64,000 bases of DNA, taken from contig NZ_LGEK01000017.1 of the NCBI RefSeq assembly GCF_001636615.1, positions 1-64,000 of the forward strand, given 5' to 3'. The stretch's first letter is position 1. Every line of letters starts with the position of its first letter. Shown in pieces: positions 19,972-53,247 of the stretch. The stretch is from Mucilaginibacter sp. L294 (lineage in GTDB: Bacteria; Bacteroidota; Bacteroidia; Sphingobacteriales; Sphingobacteriaceae). Below the pieces are notes generated by a model. That model ran no database searches and was not told where the DNA came from. It saw nothing but the letters and a program-made list of their open reading frames with translations. A program made the position numbers and the translations under genes.

Positions 19972-20067
19972 CGTCATTGCGAGGAACGAAGCAATCTCAG
20001 AACTATACCTAAACGCTTTGCATGCGCCCTTGCCAATCGGGAGATTGCTTCGTTCCTCGTAATGACG
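19972..20067. repeat. Family A inverted-repeat element, copy 1
   Basis: The 96-bp element has ends of about 27 bp. The left begins CGTCATTGCGAGGAACGAAG and the right end is its reverse complement with one difference (CTCGTAATGACG). The asymmetric interior (ACTATACCTAAACGC, GCATGCGCCC, AATCGGG) is shared with the copies at 25093-25188 and 37336-37432. It is non-coding. No clear target-site duplication is visible. Confidence 0.88.
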
Positions 20068-25092: not shown

Positions 25093-25188
25093 CGTCATTG
25101 CGAGGTACGAAGCAATCTCCCGATAGGGCAAGCCGAATGCAGAGCGGTTATGTATAGTCCGGAGATTGCTTCGTACCTCGCAATGACG
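25093..25188. repeat. Family A inverted-repeat element, copy 2
   Basis: The 96-bp element has perfect 27-bp ends that begin CGTCATTGCGAGGTACGAAG. Its interior is the reverse complement of the interior of copy 1 at about 80 percent identity by eye, so the two copies are inserted in opposite orientation. It lies in a 368-bp gap that otherwise holds only the terminator of the pseudouridine synthase gene. Confidence 0.9.
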
Positions 25189-37335: not shown

Positions 37336-37432
37336 CATCATTGGGAGGTGCGAAGCAATCTTTTTGATTGTGCATAAACGTTTTGCATGCGCTCCTGTAT
37401 ATCGGGAGATTGCTTCGTACCTCGCAATGACG
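37336..37432. repeat. Family A inverted-repeat element, copy 3
   Basis: The 97-bp copy has a slightly decayed left end (CATCATTGGGAGGTGCGAAG) and an intact right end (CTTCGTACCTCGCAATGACG). The interior matches copy 1 (CATAAACGTTTTGCATGCGC, ATCGGG). It is the first member of a larger tandem duplication. Confidence 0.85.
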
Positions 37433-37461
37433 TGCGGATATAAACTTCCGCCTTTTCCGCC

Positions 37462-37550
37462 GTTGTTGGTGTTGTCACCAACAACTTTTAGGATAGTGGC
37501 GTATGCACAGTTTGGATGCATGGCGGCTTGTTGGTGACAACACCAACAAG
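37462..37550. repeat. Family E inverted-repeat element, copy 1
   Basis: Two 24-bp palindromes face each other: GTTGTTGGTG-ttgt-CACCAACAAC at 37462-37485 and CTTGTTGGTG-acaa-CACCAACAAG at 37527-37550. Each is a hairpin and together they form the ends of an element of about 89 bp. The interior contains GGATAGTGGCGTATGCACAG. Confidence 0.85.
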
Positions 37551-37627
37551 GGCTAAGAAACGATAATAATGTTAAGCTATCGTCATTGCTTCGTGCCTCG
37601 CGGATATAAACTTTCGCCTTGTCCGCC

Positions 37628-49867: not shown

Positions 49868-49937
49868 CGTCATTGCGAGGTACGAAGCAATCTCTTTAGG
49901 ACAAATAGGCGATATGCAATTGCGTTAATCTCCCACG
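49868..49937. repeat. Family A partial copy (left end) next to the nuclease element
   Basis: A complete left end (CGTCATTGCGAGGTACGAAG...) followed by about 43 bp of interior lacks its own right end and abuts the left end of the nuclease-bearing element at 49938. The two left ends are direct repeats 70 bp apart. Confidence 0.8.
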
Positions 49938-50332
49938 CGTCATTGCGAGGTACGAAGCAATCTCCAGATAGAAAAGTAATGAGCAAGGTATTCCAAAGAG
50001 GCGGCTGTGTTTACATCATGGCCAATCTATATCATAACGTGCTATACACAGGTGTAACATCCGATATTATTGGGCGCGTATCCGATCATAAGAATTGTGT
50101 CTATCCAACCAGCTTTACCGCTAAATATAAATGTCATAAATTAGTATACTATTGCTTTTATTCTCACATTGAAGAAGCTATAGCGGAGGAAAAGCGCATA
50201 AAAGGGAGCAGCAAAGAACATAAAAGGCAATTGGTGAATTCTATAAATCCCGAATGGGTAGATTTGTATGCAAGCTTGTTAGAATAGTTGGCGATGCATA
50301 GTCGGGAGATTGCTTCGTACCTCGCAATGACG
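49938..50332 (+). mobile_element. Family A element carrying a GIY-YIG nuclease gene
   Basis: The 395-bp element is bounded by perfect 27-bp inverted repeats at 49938-49964 and 50306-50332, identical to the ends of the short family A copies. It contains only the GIY-YIG nuclease gene. The subterminal segments GATAGAAAAGT (left) and AGTTGGCG (right) also occur, joined together, in the copy at 53154-53247, which therefore looks like an internal-deletion derivative. No target-site duplication was found by eye. Mobility is an inference from the repeat structure. Confidence 0.7.
49979..50287 (+). CDS. GIY-YIG nuclease family protein within inverted repeats
   Basis: The protein has 102 residues from the ATG at 49979; an in-frame TTG at 49943 lies inside the inverted repeat and is unlikely, and an ATG at 50018 is a further option. 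The GIY-YIG fold is recognised from CVYIMAN, then VLYTGVTSDIIGRVSDHK with the catalytic Arg, TAKYKCHKLVYY, the metal-binding Glu of EEAIAEEKRIKG, and NSINPEWVDLY. It belongs to the small single-domain UvrC/URI-like group. The reading frame is intact. Its position between the terminal repeats suggests it acts on or mobilises them; this is inference. Confidence 0.85.
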   Translation: MSKVFQRGGCVYIMANLYHNVLYTGVTSDIIGRVSDHKNCVYPTSFTAKYKCHKLVYYCFYSHIEEAIAEEKRIKGSSKEHKRQLVNSINPEWVDLYASLLE

Positions 50333-53153: not shown

Positions 53154-53247
53154 CGTCATTGCGAGCGTAGCGTGGCAATCTTCGATAGAAAAGTTGGCGG
53201 CGAGCATGTAGAGGATTGCCACGTCGCTATCGCTCCTCGCAATGACG
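53154..53247. repeat. Family A inverted-repeat element, copy 5 (nuclease-element derivative)
   Basis: The 94-bp copy has the common outer ends (CGTCATTGCGAG, CTCGCAATGACG) but diverged inner arms (CGTAGCGTGGCAATC). Its interior GATAGAAAAGTTGGCG joins a left segment and a right segment that flank the nuclease gene in the 395-bp element, as expected after internal deletion. Confidence 0.82.

Follow-up and report, generated by a model that had tools for sequence, protein, structure and literature searches.

We have found that the element at positions 49938–50332 of the window, that is, of the whole 64,000-nucleotide stretch of Mucilaginibacter sp. L294 analysed here (contig NZ_LGEK01000017.1), is one case of a pairing between stand-alone GIY-YIG nucleases and CGTC-type palindromes, a pairing well shown across many bacterial phyla. 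We conclude that the nuclease is a dedicated partner of its cognate REPs, and probably it is their mobilizer as well. What is new about this REP system is its own nuclease, which belongs to an enzyme class without a known role in moving REPs.

CGTC-tagged REPs were described in 2013 by Di Nocera et al. as a superfamily without a dedicated transposase, which occurs in many bacterial phyla, includes Neisseria dRS3 and Rickettsia RPE-4 and RPE-6, and whose mover was left open (PMC3733652). Wolbachia, Kosmotoga and Mesotoga, like Rickettsia and Neisseria, are among the hosts in which these REPs were originally recorded. In two later papers about REPs and the enzymes serving them, CGTC appears solely where that survey is cited, and GIY-YIG is absent. 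In the literature searched, which had subscription journals and preprints outside its scope, we found no paper linking GIY-YIG nucleases with REPs, nor any in which 'GIY-YIG' stands together with 'extragenic palindromic'. The pairing points to a candidate for the missing enzyme of this family.

The gene-bearing element and its gene-free relatives

The features are collected in Table 1. The initial annotation had described perfect 27-bp inverted ends around one intact GIY-YIG gene, which is confirmed with one more base pair: the ends are 28 bp long without mismatch (CGTCATTGCGAGGTACGAAGCAATCTCC, read directly). The gene start was set at the ATG which matches the conserved N-terminus. Rather than terminal repeats private to the element, these ends are CGTC-type REP palindromes, in a pairing which spans many phyla and many repeat types. 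Each end is made up of CGTC, an AT-initial stem whose two arms enclose the loop, and a CTCC(A) tail, and this repeat type has an outer stem of 5 bp (ATTGC) and a loop of 10 nt.

Table 1 Features of the gene-bearing element, the gene-free dimers and the paralogues in the same genome (positions in the window, except for the last two rows).
Feature	Position	Strand	Description
Gene-bearing element	49938..50332	+	two head-to-head CGTC-type REP ends around one GIY-YIG gene
Left REP end	49938..49965	+	GTC tag, ATTGC/GCAAT stem, CTCC tail
Inner core, left half	49966..49978	+	GATAGAAAAG; in part common to gene-free dimers
Stand-alone GIY-YIG nuclease gene, 102 aa	49979..50287	+	intact ORF
Inner core, right half	50288..50304	+	TTGGCGATGCATAGTCG; in part common to gene-free dimers
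Right REP end	50305..50332	-	exact inverse of the left REP end
Solo REP end, same type	49868..49894	+	just upstream of the gene-bearing element
E1, gene-free REP dimer	19972..20067		
E2, gene-free REP dimer	25093..25188		
E3, gene-free REP dimer	37336..37432		degenerate left end (4 mismatches); orthologous site in G060 lacks E3
E5, gene-free REP dimer, related subfamily	53154..53247		loop differs (CGTCATTGCGAGCGTAGCGTGGCAATC); core motif GATAGAAAAGTTGGCG as in the gene-bearing copy
Small GIY-YIG paralogue	C261:7282		within CGTCATTGCGAGCGATAGCGTGGCAATCTTCGA repeats
Small GIY-YIG paralogue	C1:96746		within TGTCATTTCGAA...GAGAAATCTTTTAC repeats

The four gene-free copies reported with the element do exist as dimers, but they are not uniform, since the left end of E3 is degenerate and E5, whose loop differs, comes from a related subfamily; the solo end just upstream of the element had been overlooked. 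The 26-bp repeat core is found in 8 copies in the window at no more than 3 mismatches, where 0 are expected by chance, and in 75 copies in the 5.25-Mb draft genome, where the reversed sequence, used as control, has 0. The gene-free dimers and the gene-bearing copy have their ends in common, while the inner core is common only in part. For example, the core reads GATAGAAAAGTA...GGCGATCATGCATAGTC in the gene-free dimer L027 and GATAGAAAAGTA[gene]GGCGATGCATAGTC in the gene-bearing copy. Two further small GIY-YIG genes are present in the same genome, each inside another repeat type. Adjoining E3, a second and unrelated palindromic repeat (GTTGTTGGTGTTGTCACCAACAAC...GGTGACAACACCAACAA) lies at 37454–37556 and just downstream; it recurs downstream and is present in several relatives.

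The encoded protein matches PF01541 GIY-YIG (E 1.2e-10) and has the conserved Tyr, Arg, Glu and Asn of the GIY-YIG superfamily; in alignment A1, which includes it, the Y, Y, R, E and N columns are invariant. The AlphaFold2 model has a mean pLDDT of 92.9, and its best structural matches, at modest Z values, are Slx1 (Z 7.2 over 98 of 102 residues) and the UPF0213 structure 1zg2 (Z 6.7), with UvrC and I-TevI at Z of about 5.5. Foldseek alone gave no match to the protein below E 0.001, and a profile search ranks 1zg2 first (E 1.3e-9). Judging from the model, with its modest Z values, the protein appears closest to the Slx1/UPF0213-like stand-alone nucleases, with a predicted fold nearest to that of Slx1, which is a branched-DNA nuclease. 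Searches against NCBIfam and PADLOC were negative, and those against PHROGs gave weak matches only. In the two pairs with measurable dS, dN/dS is 0.05 and 0.11, that is, the nuclease is under purifying selection in both, and dS is saturated in the remaining pairs. In some hosts the gene decays in place. Copies with an internal stop (L171, L190) and copies that are decayed, truncated or interrupted (L046, L050, L078, L092) were observed.

GIY-YIG nucleases and CGTC-type palindromes occur together in many phyla

A contig scan with the diverse alignment A1 gave a list of the 80 best-scoring loci, which come from a wide range of phyla and for the most part from metagenome-assembled genomes; 78 of them, selected by protein similarity and not at random, had enough flank for analysis. 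An enclosing inverted repeat with a score of at least 13 is found at 56% of these 78 listed loci, against 0.9% of 1714 random placements within the same loci. Outward GTC-tagged hairpins stand on both flanks at 35 of the 78 (0.07% in control placements) and on at least one flank at 62 (3.8% in controls), and the other 16 have a tagged hairpin on neither flank. Among outward flanking hairpins with a stem of at least 8 bp at the listed loci, 42% are preceded by GTC, compared with 12% of inward ones and 2% in controls. In addition, the first five stem bases are equal on both sides at 26 of the 38 listed loci that have both sides (7.1 when shuffled).

Such flanks are absent from a different GIY-YIG subfamily, about 118 aa long, which these genomes also encode and which served as a control (scores 7–12). 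Genes of Y1/RAYT type were found in all 15 genomes tested, and none of 28 such genes is bordered by CGTC-type repeats on the two sides; several are accompanied by their own inverted repeats, which are of an unrelated kind. The window's own genome also has Y1/RAYT-like genes (G000, contigs C67, C33 and C21; L339, L352), and in the two that were inspected the inverted repeats show no relation to the CGTC type and are possibly a separate REP system. On plasmid p1 of Planktothrix agardhii (L156), a GIY-YIG gene with tagged repeats has an MmeI-type restriction gene on one side and DISARM drmA on the other.

The repeats share most features of the CGTC-tagged REPs, namely the CGTC/TGTC tag, the AT-initial stem, the CCA-like tail, the head-to-head dimers, the intergenic location and the many copies. 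The terminal tag lies outside the stem, and the window ends start with CGTC. The stem begins with AT in 37 of 42 GTC-tagged hairpins, and the unpaired tails among 101 are CCA (31), CTC (28) and CTA (16), with CTCC(A) in the window type. Most repeats form head-to-head dimers in intergenic DNA. What differs is the shape, as the window type has a 5-bp stem and a 10-nt loop, while the classical stem is 8–9 bp with a loop of 4–5 nt. Because of this difference, we call the window repeats CGTC-type and do not assign them to the families CGTC-1 to -4. Classical shapes do occur around the same protein family: alphaproteobacterial ends have 9 bp/5 nt and 8 bp/4 nt, such as those of Azospirillum (CGTCATCCCCGCGAAGGCGGGGATCCA) and Sinorhizobium meliloti (CGTCATCCTCGGGCTTGACCCGAGGATCCA), and further ones were found in Shinella, Novosphingobium, Rhizobium and the gammaproteobacterium Aeromonas. 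Whole-genome searches extend the pairing of CGTC REPs with GIY-YIG genes to Rhizobium bangladeshense and Bradyrhizobium.

Cognate matching, copy number and site turnover

In 41 genomes of the genus and the class, the flank types ATTGC, ATTTC, ATGCCGAA, ATnCTGAGCG and nCTGAG...GTCGAA were observed. On a maximum-likelihood tree of 70 proteins, which is based on few columns, leaves 21 forks open and includes near-copies that add to the clustering, the repeat types require 12 changes against 41.3 when shuffled, and none of 200 shuffles was as low. Several repeat types coexist in one genome (e.g., G011 and G014), and a given type reappears in the matching nuclease clade of other genomes. In Kordia, five GIY-YIG paralogues have at least four different flanking motifs. 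That is, nuclease and repeat type are matched as cognates.

Copy number was compared in 22 genomes of the genus. The median for A-type repeats is 64 with the cognate gene and 17 without it (p=0.013), for C-type repeats 20.5 and 5 (p=0.008), and the B-type values are 25 and 6 (p=0.07); the p values are optimistic, since the compared genomes are related and not independent, and some gene assignments are based on decayed copies (G006, G019). Two genomes with no gene of the subfamily (G003, G007) have zero repeats of the three types. An exception is G017, with 460 A-type repeats and no cognate gene found; the gene may have been lost following expansion, or overlooked. This comparison between genomes supports the view that REP copy number may depend on the nuclease.

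The sites of the repeats have a high turnover, with clear presence and absence at orthologous positions but without a clean recent insertion. The window element lies in the intergenic space between asparaginase and LytTR genes. The same site holds a GIY-YIG element in G131 and a decayed one in G006, and measures merely 3–45 bp in G021, G004, G081 and G074. At another site, the gene is present in G013 and G108 and absent in G047, G090 and G017. When 400 kb of G013 and G108 were compared (94.6% identity where aligned), 15 of 41 gene-free dimers had the same element at the orthologous site, 16 had a different one, i.e., another CGTC element occupying the site, and 10 had none. No target-site duplication of at least 3 bp was found at the 41 dimers, nor any clean insertion junction at six element-free sites aligned in detail between the two genomes. 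In Rhizobium, R. johnstonii 3841 has no dimer at the pcaQ-pcaD site, where others have one or two, with breakpoints that are unreadable in such diverged sequences; an empty-site search for a Rhizobium GIY-YIG locus returned IS matches only.

The initial annotation had proposed an autonomous element with MITE-like, gene-free derivatives. The first part has gained support, as GIY-YIG genes bounded by these ends were found in other genomes and orthologous sites do vary, while a classical transposon/MITE picture did not emerge, given the lack of a duplication of at least 3 bp and the sister sites which often hold a different element.

Repeats are found in 34% of convergent intergenic spaces, compared with 4–9% of other spaces (G013, G108), and part of the re-occupation may thus reflect hot spots, because the repeats favour convergent gene pairs. 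At the dimer flanks, the inverted symmetry reaches about 2 bp further, and the DNA outside is T-rich, as in terminators. Lying between convergent genes with T-rich DNA outside, the dimers of G013 and G108 (L289–L328) may act as two-way terminators. The segment 20095–25048, bounded by E1 and E2, is inverted in G021, G083, G131 and G044 and not in G060 and G117, and the segment 25214–37553, bounded by E2 and the repeat next to E3, is inverted in G060. Recombination or cutting at the repeats may be the cause, and inversions ending at REP dimers suggest that the repeats shape gene order too.

Probable mobilization, its alternatives and known systems

We consider it fairly likely that we are dealing with a CGTC-REP system in its autonomous form, whose nuclease cuts the cognate REP while host repair spreads dimers with or without the gene. 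Under this proposal, the stand-alone Slx1-like nuclease would recognise the GTC-tagged hairpin of its cognate REP and would nick or cut near the hairpin foot, probably when the REP extrudes as a hairpin or cruciform. Host repair would then copy or paste the REP dimer, with or without the gene, into some other intergenic space or in place of a REP already there, and the gene-free dimers would be non-autonomous derivatives, like the REPINs of RAYT transposases but served by an unrelated enzyme. GIY-YIG enzymes are known for hydrolysing DNA and not for joining strands, and therefore the host must supply the remaining steps. Cleavage at the tag or the hairpin foot with repair as the spreading route is presumed here, and spread by cutting and repair is our best guess. 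Several observations favour the nuclease as mobilizer: tagged flanks far above control, with stems that agree left and right; classical CGTC REPs flanking this protein family; repeat types that track the nuclease tree; copy number that is higher with the cognate gene; site turnover; purifying selection; the Slx1-like fold; and Y1/RAYT genes without these flanks. Counted against it are the lack of a target-site duplication and of a clean fresh junction, the A-type repeats of G017 whose gene was not found, the 16 untagged loci of the 78 listed, the hydrolytic chemistry of GIY-YIG enzymes, and the relatedness of the genomes behind the copy-number p values. We are evenly divided about the wider statement that, in bacteria at large, CGTC-type REPs have stand-alone GIY-YIG nucleases as their dedicated mobilizers. 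In this view the nuclease would stand in for a transposase, and nuclease and hairpin would co-evolve into many specificities in parallel.

The main rival, which we hold to be improbable though worth serious attention, is that the gene is a homing parasite, so that REP dimers would be its target sites and not its products, and the gene would home into the cores of dimers moved by something else. Homing of the I-TevI kind is the classical use of the GIY-YIG fold. Two gene copies of the window's genome, moreover, occupy the identical core point, adjoining GAAAAG, but face opposite ways, as though each had been inserted on its own, and sites in sister genomes often hold a different CGTC element. 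We have set aside this re-occupation (16 of 41) as proof of homing, since 34% of convergent spaces hold repeats anyway. The increase of copy number with the cognate gene, seen for two of the three types, speaks against homing, as does the protein itself, which is without the added DNA-binding domain of known homing nucleases. Also, the repeats do not surround the gene of any other enzyme: none of the 28 Y1/RAYT genes is so placed, and none appears in the 2013 survey (PMC3733652).

The nuclease could instead serve the host by trimming or resolving REP hairpins or cruciforms in repair, in recombination control or at mRNA ends, while the REPs spread by other means; its position beside REPs would then be explained by regulation. 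Such a role would agree with the Slx1-like fold, with the earlier prediction that Slx1-like proteins of prokaryotes function in DNA repair (PMC1564403), and with the preference of dimers for convergent gene ends next to T-rich, terminator-like DNA. We nevertheless regard it as quite unlikely, for the gene is patchy among close genomes, decays in place in some and has several paralogues with different repeats in one genome, all of which is rather the behaviour of selfish elements. Even less probable is it that RAYT or other IS200-type transposases move the repeats and that the GIY-YIG association is a by-product. Although Y1-type genes are present in 15 of 15 genomes tested, CGTC-type repeats flank none of 28 on both sides, several have unrelated inverted repeats, and G003 and G007 possess Y1 genes yet no repeat of the three types. 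Finally, the repeats are abundant, one type having 75 copies in this genome, and small genes might by chance lie in repeat-rich intergenic DNA. The probability of this is close to nil: a tag on each flank is seen in 0.07% of the control placements within these loci, the other GIY-YIG subfamily of the same genomes is without flanks, and repeat type agrees with protein clade, so that chance is contradicted by the placement, subfamily and clade controls alike.

If the nuclease is indeed the mobilizer of its cognate REPs, a likely function can be given to many proteins annotated just as 'GIY-YIG nuclease family protein'. There would also be many natural pairs of nuclease and hairpin with differing specificities, in which hairpin reading by a 100-residue enzyme is directly testable.

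Compared with known systems, the element shares with DDE insertion sequences and their MITEs the inverted ends common to gene-bearing and gene-free copies, but it contains no DDE transposase and has no target-site duplication of at least 3 bp. With I-TevI-type homing endonucleases it has in common the catalytic fold and a gene within a repeated non-coding element, while it differs in having no added DNA-binding domain, intron or intein, and in having flanking palindromes with matching gene-free copies. The domain and the minimal architecture appear to be those of Slx1/UPF0213 (YhbQ-like) proteins, which also provide the nearest solved structures (1zg2, Slx1); those proteins, however, are housekeeping or uncharacterised, and the roughly 118-aa homologues in these genomes have no flanking repeats. 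From the CGTC-tagged REPs of the 2013 survey, for which no dedicated enzyme was given, the element is distinguished by the GIY-YIG gene between its ends.

A further close parallel is the REP/REPIN-RAYT system (TnpA-REP, HUH Y1). In both, tagged hairpins are paired in inverted orientation, copies exist with and without the gene, the cognate repeats enclose the gene of a dedicated nuclease, and there are several enzyme-repeat pairs per genome. We have rejected the window element as a REP-RAYT system itself, since its enzyme is a GIY-YIG and not an HUH Y1 nuclease and the Y1 genes of the same genomes lack these repeats. GIY-YIG is unrelated to HUH Y1 and has no known joining activity, and the tag is GTC instead of GTAG. 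If these nucleases move CGTC REPs, they would constitute a second, independently built counterpart of REP-RAYT, and thereby a class of mobile element with a hydrolytic, Slx1-like structure-specific nuclease in the place of the transposase.
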